From assembly GCA_019235715.1 (NCBI GenBank), contig JAFAKE010000048.1, positions 1 through 60,467 of the forward strand: a stretch of DNA of 60,467 nt, written 5' to 3'. Numbering within the stretch: the first letter of the stretch is position 1; every line of letters begins with the position of its first letter. The position numbers and the translations under genes are program-made. Positions 30,045 to 47,096 of this stretch are shown one piece after another. The stretch comes from Vulcanimicrobiota bacterium (GTDB taxonomy: Bacteria; Vulcanimicrobiota; Vulcanimicrobiia; Eremiobacterales; Eremiobacteraceae). The notes under the pieces were generated by a model. It had not been told where the DNA came from and searched no databases. It saw only the letters and a program-made list of their open reading frames with translations.

Positions 30045-30977
30045 CTAGGACGCCTTCACCGCCGCGCGCGAAAGCGCGGCTTGGATGAGTTGCTCGATCA
30101 CGGCGTTGTACGGGATGCCGTCGGCTGCGGCCGCTTCCGGAAATAAGCTGAGCGGTGTGAGCCCCGGCAACGTGTTGCACTCGAGCACGTAGGACGAATT
30201 CGCCACCGTCATCAGAACATCGACGCGCGAATAGTCGCGGCAGCCGAGCGCGCGGTGCAGTGCAAGCGCATGGCGCTGCATGCCGGCAGCTGCGCCTGCC
30301 GGTACGTGCGCCGGCACGACGTGCGTGCTCGCGCCGGGCGTATATTTCGCGTGATAGGTGTAGAAGTCGTCATGCGGCGTAATCTCGATGACCGGTAGCG
30401 CGCGTTCGCCCAAAATGGCGACCGTGAACTCGCGGCCCTCGATGTATTCCTCAACGACGACCCACGGGCCGAACGCGCTCGCCTCTTCAACCGCGTCTTC
30501 CCATCGCTCGGCGAAGTGCACGATGCTGACGCCGACGGCGGAACCTTCAGCGCGCGGCTTGACGACGCACGGCAACCCGATCGCCTCGGGTGGACGCGCC
30601 GCCGCGTCGCCGCTCGCATCGAGCAGGACGCCGCGCGGCGTCGGAATGTCGAGCGAACGCGCCAATGCTTTGGTGATCCACTTGTCCATCGCGATCGCGC
30701 TCGCGCGCGATCCGGATCCCTGATATGGGACCTGCAGCCAATCGAGCAACGCTTGCACGGTGCCGTCCTCGCCCGCGCCGCCGTGCAGCGCATTGAAGAC
30801 CGCATCGGGCCGCATCTGCGCAAGCGTTTCGATGAAGCGCTCGTCGGCGTCCAGCGTCGTACACGGATAGCCAAGGTCTTGCAGCGCGGCGCTGACTCCC
30901 GCGCCGGTCTGCAGGCTGATCTCGCGCTCGGCGGATCGACCGCCCGCGATCACCGCAATCGCCGGCTTGTTCGCCAT
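30045..30977 (-). CDS. ddl: D-alanine-D-alanine ligase
   Basis: A 310-residue ATP-grasp enzyme that joins two D-Ala for the peptidoglycan pentapeptide, supplying MurF. Signatures are AVIAGGRSAEREISLQTG at the N-terminus, FNALHGGAGEDGTVQALLD, KPRAEGSAVGVSIV in the ATP-grasp core, VLECNTLPGLTPLSLFPEAA at the C-terminal metal/substrate loop. The Tyr in YHAKYTPGASTH lies in the omega-loop region that in many Ddl enzymes selects D-Ala over D-Lac. It is followed by the HAD gene with one base between them. Confidence 0.96.
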   Translation of the reverse strand: MANKPAIAVIAGGRSAEREISLQTGAGVSAALQDLGYPCTTLDADERFIETLAQMRPDAVFNALHGGAGEDGTVQALLDWLQVPYQGSGSRASAIAMDKWITKALARSLDIPTPRGVLLDASGDAAARPPEAIGLPCVVKPRAEGSAVGVSIVHFAERWEDAVEEASAFGPWVVVEEYIEGREFTVAILGERALPVIEITPHDDFYTYHAKYTPGASTHVVPAHVPAGAAAGMQRHALALHRALGCRDYSRVDVLMTVANSSYVLECNTLPGLTPLSLFPEAAAADGIPYNAVIEQLIQAALSRAAVKAS

Positions 30978-32440: not shown

Positions 32441-33888
32441 GCAGACTGACCGATTCCGGCGTCGGCGGCCGACAGCGTCGCGGCGAGCTCGTGCGCGACG
32501 CCGCCGATATCGCCCGCTCCAAGCGTGAGCGCGAGATCACCCGGTCCGAGCGTGCGTTGGAGGTACGCGAGCACGTCCGCGCCCTTCGGCAGATACGTCA
32601 CGTTCTTCGCCGCGTCGAGATCGCGCACGCACTCGACGATCGCTTCGGCGCGCACGCCGGGCAACGCGACTTCGCCGGCAGGGTAGATGTCGGTCACGAG
32701 GATCTCGTCGGCGCCGAGCAGCGCGTGTGCGAAATCGCGGAACAGATAGGCCGTGCGGCTGTAGCGGTGCGGCTGAAATGCGGCGACGATATGGCCCGGC
32801 CAGTACGCACGCGCTGCCGCGATCGTCTCTTGCACTGCCGTGGGATGGTGCGCGTAGTCGTCCACGATCTTCATATCGGGGCGGTCGTACAAGATCTGGA
32901 ACCGGCGCGCAACGCCGCGGAAGCGCCCGAGCGCATCGGCGATGCGCTCGAAGGGCACCCCGAATTCGAGGCCGACGGCGAGTGCGCACAGCGCGTTGTG
33001 GACGTTGATGCGGCCGGGCACGCGCAGGCGCACGCTGCCCAGCGGTGCGCCGCGATGCGAGACTGCGAATGCGGATCCGAAATCGGCCAACTGCATGTCC
33101 TCTGCGCGCACCGTCGCCGCAGCGTCGAAGCCCGCGGTGATGACCTTCGGGTCGCCCAACAGCTTCGGCGATTGATTGAAGCGGCGGATCAGTTCGTTGA
33201 CCGCCGGACAGTCTGCCGATGCGACGATGCAGCCGTTAGGCGGCACGCGATTGATGAACAGCGAGAACGTATCGATGAGATGCTCGAGGTCGCGGTAATA
33301 GCCGAGATGATCGTTCTCGATGTTCGTCACGACTGCGCACGTCGGCGTCAGGCGTAGGAACGAGGCGTCGCTTTCGTCGGCTTCTGCGACGACGACGTCC
33401 CCCGAACCCAAACGCGCGTTCGCGCCAAGATCGTTGACTTCACCGCCGATCAAGACGGTCGACTCGAATCCGCCGGCATCCAGCACCAGCGAGATCATCG
33501 AAGTCGTCGTCGTCTTGCCGTGGGTCCCCGAAACGGCGACCGCCCGCTTGTCCGCCATGATCTGCGCGAGCATCTCAGCCCGCTGGAGCACCGGCACGCG
33601 CGCGCGCTGCGCGGCGATGACTTCGGGGTTGTCCAACGGGATCGCGGACGAGATGATGACGGCGTCGGCGCCCTTGATATTAGCCGAGGCATGCCCCAGG
33701 AACACTTTGGCGCCGAGTGCGCGCAATTTTTCGATGGTGTTGTTCTTGGCCAGATCCGAGCCGGAAACTGTGATGCCCATCGCAATCAGCACGCGCGCGA
33801 TAGCGCTCATGCCAACACCGCCGATACCTACGAAGTGAACGTGCCGGTATGCAACCATCCCGGAATTATGTTTTATGTGTCCCGACAT
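32434..33888 (-). CDS. murC: UDP-N-acetylmuramate-L-alanine ligase
   Basis: A 484-residue Mur ligase that adds L-Ala to UDP-MurNAc. The N-terminal domain has VHFVGIGGVGMSAIARVL. The ATP loop is AVSGTHGKTTTTSMISLVL. The substrate motif is AVVTNIENDHLGYY, and the C-terminal domain has VDDYAHHPTAVQETI. The ATG at 33888 gives a normal length. It overlaps the 5' end of no other coding gene, although an alternative start (33858) lies ten codons in. murC and murB form their own short unit, separated from murG by two unrelated genes. Confidence 0.95.
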   Translation of the reverse strand: MSGHIKHNSGMVAYRHVHFVGIGGVGMSAIARVLIAMGITVSGSDLAKNNTIEKLRALGAKVFLGHASANIKGADAVIISSAIPLDNPEVIAAQRARVPVLQRAEMLAQIMADKRAVAVSGTHGKTTTTSMISLVLDAGGFESTVLIGGEVNDLGANARLGSGDVVVAEADESDASFLRLTPTCAVVTNIENDHLGYYRDLEHLIDTFSLFINRVPPNGCIVASADCPAVNELIRRFNQSPKLLGDPKVITAGFDAAATVRAEDMQLADFGSAFAVSHRGAPLGSVRLRVPGRINVHNALCALAVGLEFGVPFERIADALGRFRGVARRFQILYDRPDMKIVDDYAHHPTAVQETIAAARAYWPGHIVAAFQPHRYSRTAYLFRDFAHALLGADEILVTDIYPAGEVALPGVRAEAIVECVRDLDAAKNVTYLPKGADVLAYLQRTLGPGDLALTLGAGDIGGVAHELAATLSAADAGIGQSAC

Positions 33889-34000
33889 TGGGCCCCTTTG
33901 CTCGTTGCCAGGACTCACGCACCCGGCCGCCTTATTCCGATTTTGTTCTTCCCTATTTTGCGATAGCCGTGTCCGCACCATCGGCAAAAGGAGACGTTTA

Positions 34001-34933
34001 ATGAAGCGTTTGTCGCTGCTCGCTGCCCTCGTTGTGATGTGGGCGACGTCCGGCTGCTCGTCAAGCTCGACCTCTACACCACCGACGCCCGCTCCACAGG
34101 CGATTTACGTGAGCAGCTTTACCTCGCCGGGCGAACTGGCCAAGGTCGCACTGCCTATGACGGCAAGCTCGAGCGTCACTTATCTAACCCCGACTGGGCT
34201 TGTGAATTCGATCTCGTTGCGCTTCGATCACGCCGGCAACCTGTGGTCCGGAAACGACTTCACTACCGGCGTCGCCACAGGCTATGCGGCCCCGATCACA
34301 AATGCGAGCACTCCTTTCGCGACGATCAACATCGTCGGAGCGATGAACCCTGAGGCGGTCGCCTTTGACGCTGCCGGCAACCTGTGGGTCGCCGATGGTG
34401 GCGCCGGCAAGGTTTACGAATTCACGCCGCCGTTCAGCGGCAGCATCACTCCGGCCCCAGCGCTCACGATCTCAAGCATTGCGGCCCCGACCGGACTGGC
34501 GTTTGATTCCGCCGGTAATCTCTACATATCCAGTGAGTCGACTGGTACGATACAGATCTTCAATCCGCCGTTTGCGGCCGCGACAGCCTCGCCGATCACC
34601 GGGCTTAGCTCGCCGAAGGGGCTCGCATTCGACGCAACGGGCAACCTTTACATCGCCGACTTCTCAGGCAAAGTCAGTCGCATGAACGCGCCGACGGCGG
34701 GCGGTGGCGCGATCAGCACCATCGACACGGCGACCGGAATCACGAGTCCAGAAGATGTGGCGGTTGACAGTGCCGGAAACGTGTATGTGACGGATCTCCA
34801 GTTTCCGACCGTCTCTATGTTCCCGACCGCGACGACCCCATTCAGCGCGACCCTGGCTCCGAGTGTCGTGCTGACGCTGAGCGGCTTTCCCGCGGGCGTG
34901 CACGCGGGCGGCGTAGCGGTTGGAGCGCCCTAA
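34001..34933 (+). CDS. Beta-propeller (NHL-like) lipoprotein
   Basis: A 310-residue lipoprotein. The signal and lipobox are MKRLSLLAALVVMWATSGC. The mature part has about five blades with the repeat (A/G)xAFDxxGNL(Y/W)(I/V)AD or close, for example AFDAAGNLWVAD, AFDSAGNLYISS, AFDATGNLYIADF and AVDSAGNVYVTDL, like NHL or vgb/SMP-30-type propellers. A clear AAAAGGAG lies 7 bases before the ATG. It is the only plus-strand gene inside the cell-wall region, converging with the S9 peptidase and divergent from murC. Its role is unknown. Its base composition is lower in GC than the mur genes. Confidence 0.8.
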   Translation: MKRLSLLAALVVMWATSGCSSSSTSTPPTPAPQAIYVSSFTSPGELAKVALPMTASSSVTYLTPTGLVNSISLRFDHAGNLWSGNDFTTGVATGYAAPITNASTPFATINIVGAMNPEAVAFDAAGNLWVADGGAGKVYEFTPPFSGSITPAPALTISSIAAPTGLAFDSAGNLYISSESTGTIQIFNPPFAAATASPITGLSSPKGLAFDATGNLYIADFSGKVSRMNAPTAGGGAISTIDTATGITSPEDVAVDSAGNVYVTDLQFPTVSMFPTATTPFSATLAPSVVLTLSGFPAGVHAGGVAVGAP

Positions 34934-34954: not shown

Positions 34955-36844
34955 TCAAGGCGCGTGCAGATAGCGGTCGAGAAAGGCCGCTATCTGCGTA
35001 TATGCGGTGATGCGGTTCGCGTCGCGGGCGATACCGTGGCCTTCATCTGAGAACACGGTGAGTTCGACCGGAACGCCTTTGGCCTTGAGCGCGTCGGCCA
35101 TCTGGCGGCCCTCTGAGGCGGGCACGCGGGGGTCGTTCTCGCCCATGAAGATGATCAGCGGGGCCTTGATGCGGTCGACATGGTTGAGCGGCGAGATCGA
35201 CTCGAGATAGTCGCGGTCGTTGGCGAGCGACCCATACACCGCCTCGCGATTCGCCCGCCGGTACGAGCTCGTGTGCTCGAGGAACGTGACGAAGTTGGAG
35301 ATCCCGACGACGTCGACGCCCGCCGCCCAATCGTCCGGAAATTGCGTCAACCCAGCAAGGACCATGTAGCCGCCGTAGGAGCCGCCGTACAGCGCGATCC
35401 GCTTCGCATCCGCGCCGCCGGACTTGATGAGCCACTCGTGCGCCGCATGCAGGTCCTTGACCGAATCAAGGCGTTTGCGCACGTCGGCGAGGTGCAGATA
35501 GGTGTTGCCGTAGCCGAAACTGCCGCGCACGTTGGGCACGAACACGGCATAGCCGCTCGCGACGAAGAATTGCACGATCGGATTGAAGACCGGCCGTGCT
35601 TGCGCTTCAGGGCCGCCGTGGACGTCGATGACCACCGGCAACCGGCCGCGCGCGCCGCGCGGCGTGTAATACCACGCGGGAATTCGCAAACCGTCGAATG
35701 AGGTGAACGAGACGAGCCGCGGCGCGACGAACGTCGCGGCGTCGATGCCGGCGAGCTGAGGCATCGTCACTTGCGAAGTCTTCTTGTCATCGAAGCCGTA
35801 GGTCCAGATGGCGCTGGGATGCGCGGGGCCGGAGAACTCAAAGGCCAGCATGCGGCCGTCGTCAGAGAATGTCGGTACTGCAGCGACGCCGTCGGGCAGC
35901 GCGGGAGTCGCGATCGTCGCACCGCTGGCGACGTCCAGCACGCCGAGCCGCCCGTAGCCGTCGCGGTTGCGCACGTATGCAAGCCTGCTGCCATCGCGTG
36001 ACATCTCGATCGCGTCAAGGTCGTACGGTTCGTCGGCGACGAATCTGATCGGCTGTGCAGCGCCGGCGTCGATGACGGCAAGCCCGCGGTGCTCGCGCCC
36101 GCCATAATCGCTGATACAATAGATCTGCGCGTCGTCGCGCGTGAACGCGCAGCTCTCGAAATCCGCGTTGCCCGTGTGTGCGGTGAGCAAGCGCGGCGTG
36201 CTGCCGGGTCTGTCGATGTCGCTCAGCAACAGATCGTTGTTGAAGTTGTCAGTGCGCGCGCTGATCAGCACGTGCTTGCCGTCATGCGACCACGCCACCG
36301 GCCGGTTGTCGCCATCCGCCTGATAGATCAGATGCGTATCGGACGCATCCGCCGCATCCGCGCGCATTGTGTAGACGTCGAAATACTGCTTATCGCGCGC
36401 GTTCGACGCGTATGCGATCTGCGCGCCGTCGAATGAGAAGCCGCCCCAGTTGTTCTGCACGCCGGGCTGATCGAGCAGCGCATGCAAGCGTTCGCCTGCC
36501 GGGTCGACCGACCAGATGCCCCAGTTCTCGTCACCGCCGCGATCGCGCCCGAAGAGGATGACGTCCGGATCGCGCGGCGACCACGCTTTGAAGTCCGCGC
36601 GCTGCGGACCGGCCGTGATCTCGCGCGGCGCTCCGCCGCGCAAGGGTGCGACCCATACTTCGGACAGCCCTGACCCTGCAAAACTGAACGCGACCGATGA
36701 GCCGTCCGGCGAGAGCGACGGTCCGCTCTGACCTTTGATCTGCAGATAGGGCCTGACGTCGAGCGGAGCGGCAAGCGCTGCGACGGGCACGAGCAGCGGC
36801 GCAAGCGCGAGCAGCCCCAGCATTTGAACGGTAGTGGCGTACAT
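34955..36844 (-). CDS. Exported S9 family peptidase (prolyl oligopeptidase/acyl-aminoacyl-peptidase type)
   Basis: A 629-residue protein with a signal peptide (about 1-25). The N-terminal part (about 30-360) is a WD40/PD40-like beta-propeller with repeats such as SPDGSSVAFSFAGSG and MSRDGSRLAYVRNRDG. The C-terminal alpha/beta-hydrolase domain has the catalytic Ser489 in LYGGSYGGYMVL, the Asp in MGENDPRVPAS and the His in SDEGHGIARDANR. It cleaves or trims short peptides in the periplasm. It starts 10 bases after the murG stop, with AGGAG overlapping that stop, so it is co-transcribed with the mur genes. Confidence 0.93.
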   Translation of the reverse strand: MYATTVQMLGLLALAPLLVPVAALAAPLDVRPYLQIKGQSGPSLSPDGSSVAFSFAGSGLSEVWVAPLRGGAPREITAGPQRADFKAWSPRDPDVILFGRDRGGDENWGIWSVDPAGERLHALLDQPGVQNNWGGFSFDGAQIAYASNARDKQYFDVYTMRADAADASDTHLIYQADGDNRPVAWSHDGKHVLISARTDNFNNDLLLSDIDRPGSTPRLLTAHTGNADFESCAFTRDDAQIYCISDYGGREHRGLAVIDAGAAQPIRFVADEPYDLDAIEMSRDGSRLAYVRNRDGYGRLGVLDVASGATIATPALPDGVAAVPTFSDDGRMLAFEFSGPAHPSAIWTYGFDDKKTSQVTMPQLAGIDAATFVAPRLVSFTSFDGLRIPAWYYTPRGARGRLPVVIDVHGGPEAQARPVFNPIVQFFVASGYAVFVPNVRGSFGYGNTYLHLADVRKRLDSVKDLHAAHEWLIKSGGADAKRIALYGGSYGGYMVLAGLTQFPDDWAAGVDVVGISNFVTFLEHTSSYRRANREAVYGSLANDRDYLESISPLNHVDRIKAPLIIFMGENDPRVPASEGRQMADALKAKGVPVELTVFSDEGHGIARDANRITAYTQIAAFLDRYLHAP

Positions 36845-40634: not shown

Positions 40635-41603
40635 CTAATTCTGTGCGCCTGGCGCGAAGAGCAGCAGACCGAACGTCACGAGTACTGCGCAGAACGATGC
40701 CGCGATGAAAACACCGGTCACGCGGCCTTCGGGCCAGCCCGACAACTCGAAATGATGATGCAGCGGCGTCATTTTGAACACGCGCTTGCCGGTCGATTTG
40801 AAGCTCACCACCTGAATGATGACCGAAAGCGCCTCCAGCACGAACACGAGGCCGGCGATCGGCAGTATCAAGAGAAAGTTGTATTCGATCGCAAGGCCGC
40901 CGAGCAGTGCGCCCAGGGCGAGCGAGCCGGTATCGCCCATGAAGATGCGCGCCGGATGGCGATTATAATAAAGGAAGCTCGCGCACGCGCCCAGCACCGC
41001 CGCGGGTAGCGTGTCGACGAAGAGGAAGCTGAACAGCGAGAGCGGCGCCAGCGCGGTCCCGGCGGCAAGGCCGTCCAAACCGTCCGTAAGATTGACCGCG
41101 TTCGCCGCCCCGACGATCGCGCAAACACCCAAGAACCACCACAGCCACTGCGGCAAGACGACGATGCCGCTGAACCATTGCGCAGCGAAGACGCGCTGGG
41201 TCGAGGCCCAGGCGACGAACGCGATGGCGACGATGAGCAGCAGCGCGAATTTTGCGCGGGCGCGCAAGCCGAGCGCACGCCGGCCAGTGACTTTGAGGTA
41301 ATCGTCGGCAAAGCCGATGGCGGCGCTTGCGATCACGAGACAGACGACCGGCAGCGCCCATGCCTTCGCGCCGACGTACGCCGGTGCGATGAGCGCTCCG
41401 GCGATCGCGGCGAGGACGAACGCGATCCCGCCCATCGTCGGCGTGCCCGCCTTTCCAGCGTGGCTGGCTGGTCCATCTTCATAGATCTGCTGACCGACGG
41501 CCAGCCGGCGCTGCCAGCCGATCAAGATCGGAATCACGATCGCCGCGACGATCGCACCGGCGCCGAACGCAAGCGTGAGCGCGATGAAAGGCGTGAGTAT
41601 CAT
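40635..41603 (-). CDS. mraY: Phospho-N-acetylmuramoyl-pentapeptide transferase
   Basis: A 322-residue inner-membrane enzyme with about ten helices that transfers phospho-MurNAc-pentapeptide to undecaprenyl phosphate (lipid I). The catalytic aspartates are in ASAAIGFADDYLKV and VNLTDGLDGLAAGT. IFMGDTGSLALGALLG and the histidine cluster FKMTPLHHHFELSGW are present. The start overlaps the murF stop (ATGA). Confidence 0.97.
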   Translation of the reverse strand: MILTPFIALTLAFGAGAIVAAIVIPILIGWQRRLAVGQQIYEDGPASHAGKAGTPTMGGIAFVLAAIAGALIAPAYVGAKAWALPVVCLVIASAAIGFADDYLKVTGRRALGLRARAKFALLLIVAIAFVAWASTQRVFAAQWFSGIVVLPQWLWWFLGVCAIVGAANAVNLTDGLDGLAAGTALAPLSLFSFLFVDTLPAAVLGACASFLYYNRHPARIFMGDTGSLALGALLGGLAIEYNFLLILPIAGLVFVLEALSVIIQVVSFKSTGKRVFKMTPLHHHFELSGWPEGRVTGVFIAASFCAVLVTFGLLLFAPGAQN

Positions 41604-43852
41604 CCGTGCAGCGGCGATGCGCCGGCCGCGCCGCCGCTTGCGGCTGCGCGATACTTAAGGACCACGACGGGCGTCTGCTGGTCGCCGTTGCCGTGCGGAT
41701 TGCCCATCAGGCACAAACGAACTGTTTCAACGTTGACAAGCGCGCTGGCGCCCAACACCTCGGCTTTGTGCAGGTCGTTGGCGTCGACGACGGCGGCGTG
41801 CGCACCGCACTCGCGCGCGATCGCCTCGGCGACGGCTTGCGGCTGTTCGGGGCCGAGCACGATGTGCCGTTCGAATGGAGGCATGGTGCCCGTGTAGCCG
41901 TCGATCTCAGCGACCGCCGCTCCGAGCATGCGATAGAAATCGCCGCGCCGTCCGATCAGCCGCCCGGCTGCACCCGCGATCGCCGCGGCGACGACTTTGG
42001 CAGCGCCTACATTTTCGATGACGAGCTGCACAGACTCGGGCTGGCTCATCGTCGCATACGAGCCCGCCTGATCGGCGAGCACGCGCGCCAGCAAGCTCGG
42101 GCGAATCGCCTCGGCGCGAATCGACCGGCCTTGCGCGATCGCAACCGCTGTCTCTGACACGCACACGACGTCGTCGGGCCCTGCGATGCCGCGCACGCTG
42201 TCGGCGACAAGGCGCGCGATGTCGTCGCCGGACTCGATGAGCGGCGTACGCACCGGCAACGCGACGACGCCCTCGGGCGCGCCATCGCCCTCAACGTGAA
42301 ACGACGCGCCTTGATGTCCGGGCAGAGTGCGAACGGCCGGCCGGCCAACGCCCAAAGCGGCGCCCTCTGAGGCGGCGAAAGCCACCGAAGGAGCGGCGAG
42401 AGGAGACTCTCCCGATATCTCGCCGCGCGGCGCAGCGCGGGCGTTGGCCGTCGGCAGCGCGCTCGGCCGCGCTGACAGGAGCGCGTTGAGTATCTCCTCC
42501 ATGCGCTGCACGCGCGATCCTTTAAGCAAGACCATGTCGCCATTGCGCAGCCGCTCGTTGAGCGTCTGCGCGATCTCAGCATTCGTCACGTACGTGTGAA
42601 CCGCAGTGGGTGCCAGCCCGGCAGCGAGCGCGCCTTGGGCGATCGTCTGCGCGTGATCGCCCCCGCAATACAACTCGTCGACGCCGGCGCGCGCCGCTTC
42701 CGCACCGGTGCTCTCGTGCCCGATGCGCGCAGCCGAACCGAGTTCGGCCATGCTGCCGAGCACCGCGATGTGGCGCGACGCCGGCAAGGAGGCAAACGTG
42801 TGCAGCGCGTGCTTCATCGAGGTCGGGCTCGCGTTGTATGCGTCGTAGACCGCGGTCGCCCCCTGGGGCAGCGTGTGCAGCTCGAACCGCCCGGGTGGCA
42901 AGCGCAGATCTCCGAGTCCTTCGATCGCCTCCTCAAAACGCAGTCCGCACTGAATCGCCGCACCCGCGGCGAGCAGCGCATCGCGCAAATGATGCTCGCC
43001 CACAAGATGCCAGTGCGCGAACGCGTGCGATGCGCCCAGCGACAATGCTACGGCGCCGTCGCGCGGCTCGCCGGCTTCGAGCATCAATCCATCGGTCCCG
43101 GGCTCGCCGCACAAGCGCACCCATAACGCGCGTTCGCTCAGGCCGGCTTCGCTCGCGAGACGCCTGGTCCAGTCGTCGCCCGCATTGCAGACCGCGCGAG
43201 CGCCGCCCGCAAAGATCGCGAACTTCGTGCGCGCGAGCTGCTCGGAACTTTCAAAGAACTCAAGATGCGCTTCGCCGATATTGACGAGCACCCCGACGTC
43301 CGGCGCCGCGATCTCGACGAGCTGCGCGATCTCGCCTGGATGACGCGCGCCGAATTCGGCGACGGCGACATCGACGTCATCGCCGATCGCGTAACACAAG
43401 TGCGCGACGCCGAGTTCGTTGTTCTCGTTGTATGGCGCCGCGACAACGCGGCGATAGCGCCCGATCAATTGCGCCGCGAACGCCTTGGTCGTCGTCTTGC
43501 CGACGCTGCCGGTGATGGCGACGACCGTCGTGTGCGTCGCGCGGCGGCGTGCGGCCGCGGCGCCGCTCAGGTACGCGGCTTTCGCGTCACCGACCAACAC
43601 CACGGGAACGGTGACGCCCGCAGGCACCGCCTCGGCGCGGTCGACCACGAGCGCGGCGGCGCCGGCATCCAGCGCGGCCTGTATATAATGATGGCCGTCG
43701 AAATTCTCACCACGCAGCGCCACAAAAGTTTGGCCGGCGCGGAGCAAGCGGCTGTCGGTGCTCGGCACGAACGGCAACTCGTCGACGGGCGCCGGCCGAA
43801 CCAGTGCGCCGCCTGCAGCGTCGATGAAGCGCGCGAGCGTCAGGCGGCTCAT
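41600..43852 (-). CDS. murF: MurF ligase fused to a CofE-like (F420-0:gamma-glutamyl ligase family) domain
   Basis: A 750-residue protein, about 300 longer than a normal MurF. Residues 1-460 are UDP-MurNAc-tripeptide:D-Ala-D-Ala ligase: ATP loop VVAITGSVGKTTTKAF (about 112-127), VLVNIGEAHLEFF, VYDAYNASPTSMKHAL, and MVLLKGSRVQRMEEIL near the end. After an Ala/Pro/Gly-rich linker (about 462-515), residues about 517-735 match the CofE family of GTP-dependent gamma-glutamyl ligases: LPVRTPLIESGDDIARL, VCVSETAVAIAQGRSI, RRGDFYRMLGAAVAEIDG, AAVVDANDLHKAEVLGAS, MGNPHGNGDQQTPVVVLK. CofE adds gamma-linked glutamate to coenzyme F420-0, and no other F420 gene is in the window. ATGA overlaps join it to murE and mraY. 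Confidence 0.9.
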   Translation of the reverse strand: MSRLTLARFIDAAGGALVRPAPVDELPFVPSTDSRLLRAGQTFVALRGENFDGHHYIQAALDAGAAALVVDRAEAVPAGVTVPVVLVGDAKAAYLSGAAAARRRATHTTVVAITGSVGKTTTKAFAAQLIGRYRRVVAAPYNENNELGVAHLCYAIGDDVDVAVAEFGARHPGEIAQLVEIAAPDVGVLVNIGEAHLEFFESSEQLARTKFAIFAGGARAVCNAGDDWTRRLASEAGLSERALWVRLCGEPGTDGLMLEAGEPRDGAVALSLGASHAFAHWHLVGEHHLRDALLAAGAAIQCGLRFEEAIEGLGDLRLPPGRFELHTLPQGATAVYDAYNASPTSMKHALHTFASLPASRHIAVLGSMAELGSAARIGHESTGAEAARAGVDELYCGGDHAQTIAQGALAAGLAPTAVHTYVTNAEIAQTLNERLRNGDMVLLKGSRVQRMEEILNALLSARPSALPTANARAAPRGEISGESPLAAPSVAFAASEGAALGVGRPAVRTLPGHQGASFHVEGDGAPEGVVALPVRTPLIESGDDIARLVADSVRGIAGPDDVVCVSETAVAIAQGRSIRAEAIRPSLLARVLADQAGSYATMSQPESVQLVIENVGAAKVVAAAIAGAAGRLIGRRGDFYRMLGAAVAEIDGYTGTMPPFERHIVLGPEQPQAVAEAIARECGAHAAVVDANDLHKAEVLGASALVNVETVRLCLMGNPHGNGDQQTPVVVLKYRAAASGGAAGASPLHG

Positions 43853-45336
43853 GCGCCCACCCTGCGGATTGCGGCTTGCGCAGTGCTGACGTCGGAGAAT
43901 GGGAGGCGCTCGCCGCGCACGAGCTGATACGCCTCGTGTCCCTTGCCCGCGATGACGACGACGTCGCCCGGTTCGGCGAGCGCGATCGCGCTTTCGATCG
44001 CCGAGGCGCGGTCCGGCACGACCGTATGCGTCGCGCCCGCACCCTGCATGCCGGCCAAGACGTCAGCGATGATCGCCTGCGGATCCTCAAAGCGCGGATT
44101 ATCGTTGGTCAGCACCACGTGGTCGGCGAGTTCGCGAGCGATGCGGCCCATGACGGGACGCTTGAGCGGATCGCGATCGCCGCCGCAGCCGAACACGCAC
44201 AGCACGCGATGCGCGGTCAACGCGCGCGCCGCTTGTAACACGTTGCGCAGTCCGTCGGGCGTGTGCGCGTAGTCGACATAGACGCCGATGCGCTCGGCCG
44301 GCACTTGCGTCATGCGACCAGGCACTGCGTTGATCGAAAGCAGGCCATCCGCGATCGCTTCCACATCGATCTCGAGCGCCGTCGCGATCGCCATCGCCGC
44401 CAGCGCATTGGCGACGTTGAACGGCCCCGGCAGCCGAACCGTGAATTTCTCGGACGACAGCGTGGGTACCGCGAAGCGCGACCCGTCAGCGAACAATTCC
44501 ACGTCGACCGCGCGCAGCGCAGCGTCGCTGCTCTGCATCGAATAGGTCAGCGCCGACGGAGCTTCTGACGCAAGCCGCCTGCCTTCGGCGTCGTCGAGGT
44601 TAAGCACCGCGATACCCGGACGCTTGCTGCGATTGTGCTGAACGAGATCGAACAGACGGCGCTTCGTCTTCGCGTACTCCTCGAAGTTGCCGTGGAAATC
44701 GAGATGATCGTGCGTCACGTTCGTCAGCGCGGCGACGTCGAACTCGACGTCGTCCACGCGGTGCATGGCGAGCGCGTGGCTTGAGACCTCGAGCACGGCG
44801 CCGGCGGCACCAGCGGCGCGGAAGCGCGCGAGCAGTTCCTGCAAATCGTGTGCGTACGGCGTCGTATGTTCGAGGTCGACGGCGAATTTGTCGTTCAACC
44901 GGGCGCCGAGCGTCCCGATAAGTCCGAATTGACGGCCTGCGGCTTTAGCAATCGCCTCGACGATGTGCGTGGTCGTCGTTTTGCCGTTCGTGCCGGTAAC
45001 GCCGACGCACGCCAATGCGCTGCTCGGACGGCCCCATAGCTCGGCAGCAACCGGGGACAGCGCGGCGAGCACCGATGGCACGACGACCAGCGGTACGCTG
45101 CCGATGTCGATATCGCGCTCGGCGAGCACCGCGCCTGCACCCGCCGCGACTGCTTCCGCGGCATGCGCGTGGCCGTCGTCGCGCAGGCCGCGCAGGCACG
45201 CGAACAAACCGCCGCGTTCGATGCGCCGGGAGTCGATGGAGAGCGACGTGATGAGGACGTCCGGGTCGCCGCTTACGCGCATGTCGCCGACGCCGGCGAG
45301 CAGACGCCGGAGCAGTGTCGGCATCGAGTGTGTCAT
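43849..45336 (-). CDS. murE: UDP-MurNAc-L-Ala-D-Glu:meso-diaminopimelate ligase
   Basis: A 495-residue Mur ligase adding the third residue of the stem peptide. ATP loop: VGVTGTNGKTTTTHIVEAI. Carbamylated-lysine and metal region: ALTNVTHDHLDFHGNFEEYAK. The amino-acid specificity motif is DNPR, in VVLTNDNPRFEDP, which is the meso-DAP signature (lysine-adding MurE enzymes have other residues here). ATG at 45336 overlaps the PBP stop (ATGA) and gives the family length. The longer frame upstream lies inside the PBP gene. Confidence 0.96.
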   Translation of the reverse strand: MTHSMPTLLRRLLAGVGDMRVSGDPDVLITSLSIDSRRIERGGLFACLRGLRDDGHAHAAEAVAAGAGAVLAERDIDIGSVPLVVVPSVLAALSPVAAELWGRPSSALACVGVTGTNGKTTTTHIVEAIAKAAGRQFGLIGTLGARLNDKFAVDLEHTTPYAHDLQELLARFRAAGAAGAVLEVSSHALAMHRVDDVEFDVAALTNVTHDHLDFHGNFEEYAKTKRRLFDLVQHNRSKRPGIAVLNLDDAEGRRLASEAPSALTYSMQSSDAALRAVDVELFADGSRFAVPTLSSEKFTVRLPGPFNVANALAAMAIATALEIDVEAIADGLLSINAVPGRMTQVPAERIGVYVDYAHTPDGLRNVLQAARALTAHRVLCVFGCGGDRDPLKRPVMGRIARELADHVVLTNDNPRFEDPQAIIADVLAGMQGAGATHTVVPDRASAIESAIALAEPGDVVVIAGKGHEAYQLVRGERLPFSDVSTAQAAIRRVGA

Positions 45337-47096
45337 TGTTGTACCGGGGACGTATTCACCCGAGCAGGCGGACGCGCCTCGGTCGCGACGCGCCGCGCCA
45401 GAATGCCCTCGCGCCACAGCACGCGTCCAGCCAATTCGCGGAAAGCAGGCGCCGCGACGAGTCCGCCATAGTACAGCCCACGCGGGCGCTCGACGTTGAT
45501 GAGCACGACGTATTGCGGCTTATCGGCCGGCACGATGCCGATGAACGACGCGACGTATTCGCCGGTCCGATACTGTCCGTTTTCCACAATCTCGGCGGTG
45601 CCCGTTTTCCCGGCAACCGCGTAGCCTGGTATTTGCGCGTTGGTGCCGGTGCCGCGTTTGACGACGTTGCGCAGCATTGTGAGCAGCACCGCAGCGGTTT
45701 GCGGATGCATCACGCGCCGCACGATCTGCGGCTCGTAGCGGCGCACGACGCGTCCTTGCGGATCGACGATCTCGCGCACGATCAGCGGGCGCATCAACAT
45801 GCCGCCATTCGCGATCGCCGCGTACGCACGCGCGAGCGAGAGCGCCGTCACGGAGACGCCTTGACCGAAGGCGATCGTCGCGACGCGCGAGCCGTACCAT
45901 TGATCGGGCGGATCGATGATGCCCGGACTTTCACCCGGCAGATCGACGCCGGTCACGTCGTCAAGACCGTAACGGCGGATGTACTCGGCCATCGTGCGCT
46001 TGCCGACGCGCATCGCGACTTCCGCGGCGCCGACGTTATGCGAGTAAGTGACGATATCCGAGAGCGTCTCGCGCATGTGGCCTGACGACATGAGACCGTC
46101 GTCTGCGTTGTGTATCACATAGCCGCCGATGTCGATCGCATTCTCCGCTGGAAACGTGTCGTCGAGGCTTACGCGCCCGGAGTCGATCGCGGCGGTCGCG
46201 GTGACGAGCTTGAAGGTCGAACCCGGTTCGTAGGGATCGGCGATGGCGCGATCTTTGTACGAGTCCTGCGAAAAAGCCGCATAGCGGTTGGGGTCGTAGT
46301 TGGGCCAGTTGGCGAGCGCGAGGATCTCGCCCGTGTCGGCGCGCAGCACGATCGCGCTTGCGCTGCGCGCGCTGTATTGCGCCGCCGTTTTCGCAAGCAC
46401 GTCTTCGGCCGCGAGCTGCAGCGCGCGGTCGAGCGTCAGCATGACGGTGTCCCCGGTGACCGCTGCTTCGACGACGCGCCGTCCGAAGGGCAGCGGACGG
46501 GATTGGCTGTCGGTCTCCTCGACGACCTGCCCCGCTTTGCCGGAAAGCACGTCGTTGAAGGCGACCTCGATGCCGGCAAGCCCCTGATTGTCGATGCCCG
46601 TGAAACCGATGACGGTCGAACCGATGCGCCCTTGTGGATCGACGCGCAAGCCGGTCGGCTCGTCGCTTGTGCCCACGCCAAGGAGGCCAAGACCGTCGAT
46701 GCGGTCGCCCAACGCCTTGGGGCGCATGCGGTCGAGATAGATAAAGGTTGAATGCGAAGTGAGCTCGCGTTCGAGCGCTGGGGCAGGACGGTGCAGGAGC
46801 GGGGCGAGCGCGAGCGCGGTGCTGTGCGCGTTTTCGATGTCGGGCGGCTGCGCGAAGATCTGCACTGCCGGCGACGTGCCCGCGAAGACGACGCCGAAGC
46901 GGTCGACGATGCGACCGCGCTTGCCGCTGACCGGATATTCGGCGCGGTGCTGGTCGACAGCGATGGATGCGAGCGCGGCGCCGTCGCGTACTTGCACGCG
47001 GTAGAGGCGCGCGACGAGCAGTCCGGCGACGACGAAGAAGACCCAGAACACGAGGATGGCGCGCGCGCGCAGGCGGCTGCGTTCTTTCTCTTTCAC
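45333..47096 (-). CDS. ftsI: Class B penicillin-binding protein (FtsI/PBP2-like transpeptidase)
   Basis: A 587-residue protein with one N-terminal membrane helix (about 12-32: ILVFWVFFVVAGLLVARLY), a PBP dimerisation domain and a transpeptidase domain. Catalytic motifs: SxxK in EPGSTFKLV (Ser293), SxN in TYSHNVGAAE, and KTG in VAGKTGTAEI (Lys497). It cross-links stem peptides at the division septum and should pair with the SEDS protein encoded at 38-39 kb. There is no C-terminal PASTA domain. The start is GTG at 47096, 16 bases after ftsL. Confidence 0.95.
   Translation of the reverse strand: MKEKERSRLRARAILVFWVFFVVAGLLVARLYRVQVRDGAALASIAVDQHRAEYPVSGKRGRIVDRFGVVFAGTSPAVQIFAQPPDIENAHSTALALAPLLHRPAPALERELTSHSTFIYLDRMRPKALGDRIDGLGLLGVGTSDEPTGLRVDPQGRIGSTVIGFTGIDNQGLAGIEVAFNDVLSGKAGQVVEETDSQSRPLPFGRRVVEAAVTGDTVMLTLDRALQLAAEDVLAKTAAQYSARSASAIVLRADTGEILALANWPNYDPNRYAAFSQDSYKDRAIADPYEPGSTFKLVTATAAIDSGRVSLDDTFPAENAIDIGGYVIHNADDGLMSSGHMRETLSDIVTYSHNVGAAEVAMRVGKRTMAEYIRRYGLDDVTGVDLPGESPGIIDPPDQWYGSRVATIAFGQGVSVTALSLARAYAAIANGGMLMRPLIVREIVDPQGRVVRRYEPQIVRRVMHPQTAAVLLTMLRNVVKRGTGTNAQIPGYAVAGKTGTAEIVENGQYRTGEYVASFIGIVPADKPQYVVLINVERPRGLYYGGLVAAPAFRELAGRVLWREGILARRVATEARPPARVNTSPVQQ

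Follow-up and report, generated by a model that had tools for sequence, protein, structure and literature searches.

The F420-0:glutamate ligase CofE uses GTP and two metal ions to turn a carboxylate into an acyl phosphate, which is then attacked by the amine of glutamate, and the chemistry of the enzyme has been likened by the same authors to that of MurD; a domain-swapped hairpin contacts F420, while F92, G153-C155 and R234 hold the deazaflavin (PMC10861534). Bacterial homologues have been described in other settings. CT611 of Chlamydia complements an E. coli folC mutant (PMC1971073), and an operon for wall modification in Streptococcus pyogenes includes the CofE homologue qimC, whose role there is unproven (PMC13059722). 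By analogy, qimC may be a precedent for a link between a CofE homologue and the cell envelope, and it is the only one that we found. Our search of the literature returned no publication naming MurF and CofE together.

The window, by which we mean the whole 60,467-nucleotide stretch of Vulcanimicrobiota DNA analysed here (genome G000), carries on its reverse strand a 750-codon open reading frame (41600-43852) in which MurF is followed by a linker and a CofE-superfamily domain. The MurF part (residues 1-458; 42479-43852, reverse strand), the D-Ala-D-Ala-adding ligase, contains the Mur_ligase N, M and C domains, and its residues 32-458 match the murF model TIGR01143 with 328.5 bits against a cut-off of 288.6. 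This bears out an earlier sequence-only reading, which had described a 750-codon murF with an intact Mur-ligase portion. The linker of about 57 residues (459-515; 42308-42478, reverse strand) is rich in Ala, Gly, Ser and Pro and differs in sequence among the three genomes of the genus. The C-terminal domain (residues 516-750; 41603-42307, reverse strand) is the short, dcw-encoded form of the family. The stop codon of the fused gene overlaps the start of mraY (40635-41603, reverse strand) in an ATGA at 41600-41603, and the 3' end of murE (43849-45417, reverse strand) overlaps the start of murF. A ddl gene (30045-30977, reverse strand; PF07478 match G000:C67:30081-30596) is also in the window, so MurF can draw its dipeptide substrate from the usual enzyme and the domain can be ruled out as a replacement for a missing Ddl. 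Elsewhere in the cluster, this genus has a gene for a 629-residue S9-type peptidase (34955-36844, reverse strand) inserted between murG and murC; in same-family relatives outside the genus murC directly follows murG, with no such gene between them. Beside murC, and opposite to the direction of the cluster, is a 352-residue open reading frame with repeated NHL-like segments (33875-34933, forward strand).

The fusion is not a product of assembly. A second genome of the genus (G002) has the identical in-frame fusion with a different linker sequence, and in the third (G001), whose contig begins inside the end of MurF, the frame stays open through its own linker into the CofE-like domain. GC content by codon position is coding-like on either side of the junction and flatter within the linker. 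Since the junction is in frame in all three genomes, a joining artefact is excluded, and the frameshift or assembly error that could have undone the sequence-only reading is ruled out by these independent genomes together with the coding-like GC.

Residues 534-681 match PF01996 with 53.4 bits (cut-off 25, E 3e-14), and the same model is above its cut-off in all 15 members scanned, the dcw form of the domain scoring 53-57 bits. An AlphaFold2 model of the domain, based on a 54-sequence alignment, has a pLDDT of 90.9. Searched against the PDB with Foldseek, it gave CofE of A. fulgidus (2phn) as the only significant match (E 1.5e-10, TM 0.57-0.60 over 251 columns), and profile comparison with genuine CofE of the same phylum gave a probability of 97.6, covering mainly the first two thirds. 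Given that the CofE-like family is present in 80 of the phylum's 85 good genomes, and that CofE is the sole significant PDB match, this resemblance is not a chance one. The C-terminal CofE-family motifs of the sequence-only reading, namely GDD near the start, VAIAQGR, RRGDFYR, VVDANDLHK and NPHG-x-G-x-QQTP, are likewise present, and among 15 sequences from the same class most of them vary little or not at all. By sequence and predicted fold, the domain is a complete but divergent member of the superfamily, which shares with CofE (TIGR01916; PDB 2PHN, 7ULD) the PF01996 assignment, the whole-chain fold and an alignable N-terminal GDD...GD region. The CofE hallmarks SKAEGR, NAGxDxSN and DSFGR are not kept in it. 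In place of NAGxDxSN and DxxGR it has DGYTGT and DANDL, and in the model D136 of DGYTGT and D175, N177 and D178 of VVDANDL look to be located at apparently equivalent strand ends of CofE. Beyond DANDL, the following segment has about half the length of its CofE counterpart, the shortened part probably being the missing F420-contacting hairpin. The nucleotide and metal motifs of CofE are only partly recognisable in the domain, and we infer the use of a nucleoside triphosphate from the fold and the superfamily.

Surveying MurF architecture in relatives, we find that the fusion is a late event restricted to one genus, whereas the location between murF and mraY is class-wide and the gene is separate elsewhere in the class. 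All 20 genomes read, from three families, have the CofE-like gene between murF and mraY, the G001 contig beginning at the junction. Among 80 public loci, 77 have murF upstream of the gene and 76 have mraY downstream of it, the exceptions being one locus from another lineage (L131) and otherwise contig edges; none of the public loci that have murF shows the fusion. In 16 of 18 unfused relatives the start of the gene overlaps the murF stop by 4 bp. Among the genomes in which the gene was not found, seven were inspected, and in each the contig on the Ddl side breaks off in or beside murD, ftsW or murG, short of the site, so that no true exception to the murF-mraY position was seen in the class. 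No relatives were found on plasmids.

Between families, the CofE-like protein is 57.9% identical to that of the window, compared with 42.4-55.3% for nine other dcw proteins. It is therefore the best conserved protein of the cluster, above MurF itself, and is under strong constraint. The 54-sequence alignment has 25 invariant columns, all intact in the fused domain and including D136, D175, N177, D178, N203 and N207; its common core motifs are G-F, D---GT-PP, D-NDL, NP-GN and TP.

Other classes of the phylum (Eremiobacterota, or Vulcanimicrobiota) have a long form of about 400-450 residues (G101-G148), which belongs to the same subfamily (34-42% identity, with D---GT-PP, D-NDL and NP-GN in common). 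It differs from the short form in having an N-terminal transmembrane helix and a beta-sandwich before the CofE-like domain, in being located outside dcw and in 11 residues. Relatives of the long form presumably exist in cyanobacteria too. A split-off N-terminal domain was not found elsewhere in the genome in any of 15 same-class genomes searched. Short and long forms make up separate, fully supported clades with 11 clade-specific positions (for example Q89 and E91 in the short form against S and Y in the long), eight of these lying within residues 81-96 and 137-138. The pattern is one that a change of substrate would produce, though it does not prove such a change. The protein of L131, which is short and has a long branch, clusters with the long forms. 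It comes from a tight three-gene operon (L131 9992-12673) in a metagenome-assembled genome titled Actinobacteria, in which the CofE-like gene overlaps a gene for an Orn/Lys/Arg decarboxylase-like protein and a membrane beta-sandwich protein, corresponding to the N-terminal part of the long form, is encoded separately. Family f4 encodes, just after the long form, a protein of 755-828 residues (L143 3034-5520, L144 7402-9669, L145 4582-6990) with no confident Pfam match and a weak DUF2157 match in one case.

We suggest, with confidence a little below even, that the domain, a member of the CofE superfamily, acts as a nucleotide-dependent amide ligase and was recruited to wall-precursor synthesis in the ancestor of the class Eremiobacteria. 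Ligase chemistry is likely, and a link of the gene to the cell envelope is reasonably likely; that the enzyme acts on UDP-MurNAc-peptide is a more tentative suggestion, which falls somewhat short of an even chance. The short form, lacking the anchor and beta-sandwich, with its gene between murF and mraY and its clade-specific residues altered, would by the logic of CofE use GTP and two metal ions to phosphorylate a carboxylate, and an amine would then attack the acyl phosphate to yield an amide. UDP-MurNAc-pentapeptide has free carboxylates on D-iGlu (alpha-COOH), on DAP (epsilon-COOH) and on the terminal D-Ala. As the ligase would stand between MurF and MraY, this pentapeptide would be its simplest substrate: an amino acid or other amine would be joined to a free carboxylate, the candidates being the alpha-COOH of D-iGlu or the epsilon-COOH of DAP, after MurF and before MraY, and where the ligase is fused to MurF, in a single genus, the product would be channelled. 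A reaction like that proposed, amide formation on a free carboxylate of the stem peptide, is carried out by MurT/GatD and other ligases that amidate or branch this peptide, with folds unrelated to the CofE-like domain. It is possible, though doubtful, that peptidoglycan synthesis has a new step throughout the class, at which UDP-MurNAc-pentapeptide is modified on a free carboxylate between MurF and MraY by a ligase of CofE fold that has no relationship to the Mur ligases and is joined to MurF in one genus.

A wall role is supported by the fixed position, the 4-bp overlaps, the fusion, the conservation and invariant columns, the separation of the clades, the lack of CofD and the presence of FolC and FolP (both described below). 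It also finds support in precedents: the MurD-like chemistry of CofE, qimC, and a long form that overlaps ddl in one genome (G114). QimC resembles our domain as a CofE-fold protein in an envelope-modification context and differs, by its description, in belonging to a streptococcal operon and in being far closer to 2PHN (RMSD 0.97, PMC13059722). Weighing against a wall role, gene position and fusion are guilt by association, and a dcw location may serve expression; moreover long forms are found outside dcw, three of them adjoining folate or C1 genes (FolD twice, MTHFR once), and the match to the nucleotide and metal motifs of CofE is partial. The sequence-only reading had argued from the fusion to a gamma-glutamyl or similar modification of the UDP-MurNAc-peptide. 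Its wall-precursor role is the best supported of the readings and, through the class-wide murF-mraY position, the translational coupling, the top conservation and the clade-specific changes, stands on firmer ground than the fusion gave it; a gamma-glutamyl modification in particular is one possibility, as the motifs that define the substrate in CofE are not conserved in the domain. The cultured species of the phylum has been described as having an ordinary thin peptidoglycan layer, without its composition (PMC9758169).

It is unlikely, but worth serious consideration, that the protein is a ligase of some small molecule or envelope component, such as a polyamine conjugate or a lipid or polymer precursor, which is co-expressed with the wall genes and does not act on UDP-MurNAc-peptide. 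The transmembrane helix and beta-sandwich of the long form suggest a membrane-proximal substrate and its neighbours are varied, and in L131 the anchor domain is a separate gene and a decarboxylase-like gene is overlapped. Such a ligase would leave the fixed murF-mraY position and the MurF fusion unexplained. In Negativicutes, attachment of polyamine to D-Glu serves as an anchor for SLH proteins (PMC10628300), and together with the L131 operon this raised the idea of a similar anchor here. That idea is weakened, since CsaB is nearly universal alongside SLH proteins and SLH tethering need not use a polyamine-modified wall. A match to ornithine/lysine decarboxylase was absent from G000, with one each in G001 and G002. 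G000 encodes an SLH-domain protein (G000:C30:2989-3120, open frame of 974 residues) and CsaB (G000:C50:7040-7963), as expected for SLH-based outer-membrane tethering.

That the protein is a gamma-glutamyl ligase of folate or another C1 carrier, like Chlamydia CT611/FolC2, with an incidental dcw position, seems improbable. CT611 (COG1478; compare TIGR04132) is likewise a bacterial CofE homologue from a genome without F420 synthesis, and its complementation of folC speaks for this reading (PMC1971073). Long forms overlap folD in two f16 genera (L157 and L158), f16 genomes being without FolC, and one lies just before MTHFR (L149, in G110); genomes of f4, f5 and f14-f16 have no FolC, and the majority of them carry the long form. 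However, these genomes also lack a convincing FolP, so that a folate role there would be one of salvage. Whole families (G101-G105, G134-G148) are without FolC or DHPS matches, though some have FolD. Within the class, FolC is encoded in full length in nearly all genomes in addition to the CofE-like protein, and G000 has the C-terminal half of FolC at the edge of a contig, with FolP after it. Folate therefore need not depend on the domain, and a substitute for a missing FolC can be ruled out for the class. Unlike CT611/FolC2, going by its description, the dcw form coexists with FolC, has no match to TIGR04132 (NCBIfam, putative folate gamma-glutamate ligase) at E 0.001, and has wall genes and no folate gene as neighbours; the clade-specific positions, too, separate it from the long form. 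We thus keep a folate role among the rivals, with a better case for the long form than for the short one in dcw.

A role without catalysis, as a partner by which MurF or MraY is stabilised or regulated, would fit the fusion, the fixed position and the incomplete match to the CofE nucleotide motifs, but is quite improbable, given that the 25 invariant columns over deeply diverged homologues, the conservation above that of MurF and the free-standing relatives outside dcw all favour an enzyme.

Despite its PF01996 membership and CofE as its closest solved structure, the domain is almost certainly not an F420 ligase, and a genuine F420-0:glutamate ligase supplying an F420 step is barely credible: unlike CofE, it is dcw-encoded and without the hallmark motifs and putative F420-hairpin segment, it scores 36.3 bits against the CofE equivalog model TIGR01916 (cut-off 180.65; 247 bits for the genuine CofE of G131, same phylum), G000 has no CofD, the sole homologue being YvcK (TIGR01826, 374 bits, cut-off 196), and in other classes a true CofE is found beside CofD (296.6 bits in G145), encoded by a gene distinct from that of the long form, which is present as well. 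True CofE and the long form coexist in several genomes and are therefore paralogues with separate roles. The moonlighting in cofactor synthesis that the sequence-only reading had allowed for is thereby largely excluded for F420 and, with FolC and FolP present, not needed for folate.

What began as a fusion read from a single genome has become a class-wide dcw gene in a class of little-known soil bacteria. The proposed role as a wall-precursor ligase is directly testable, since one species of the phylum, Vulcanimicrobium alpinus (PMC9758169), is in culture and the domain is of small size and without a membrane anchor. If real, this role would assign a function to a divergent COG1478/PF01996 branch that bears the name of an F420 ligase in genomes without F420, and it would add an extra cytoplasmic step to peptidoglycan synthesis in a diderm phylum, by means of a fold so far tied to cofactor glutamylation.
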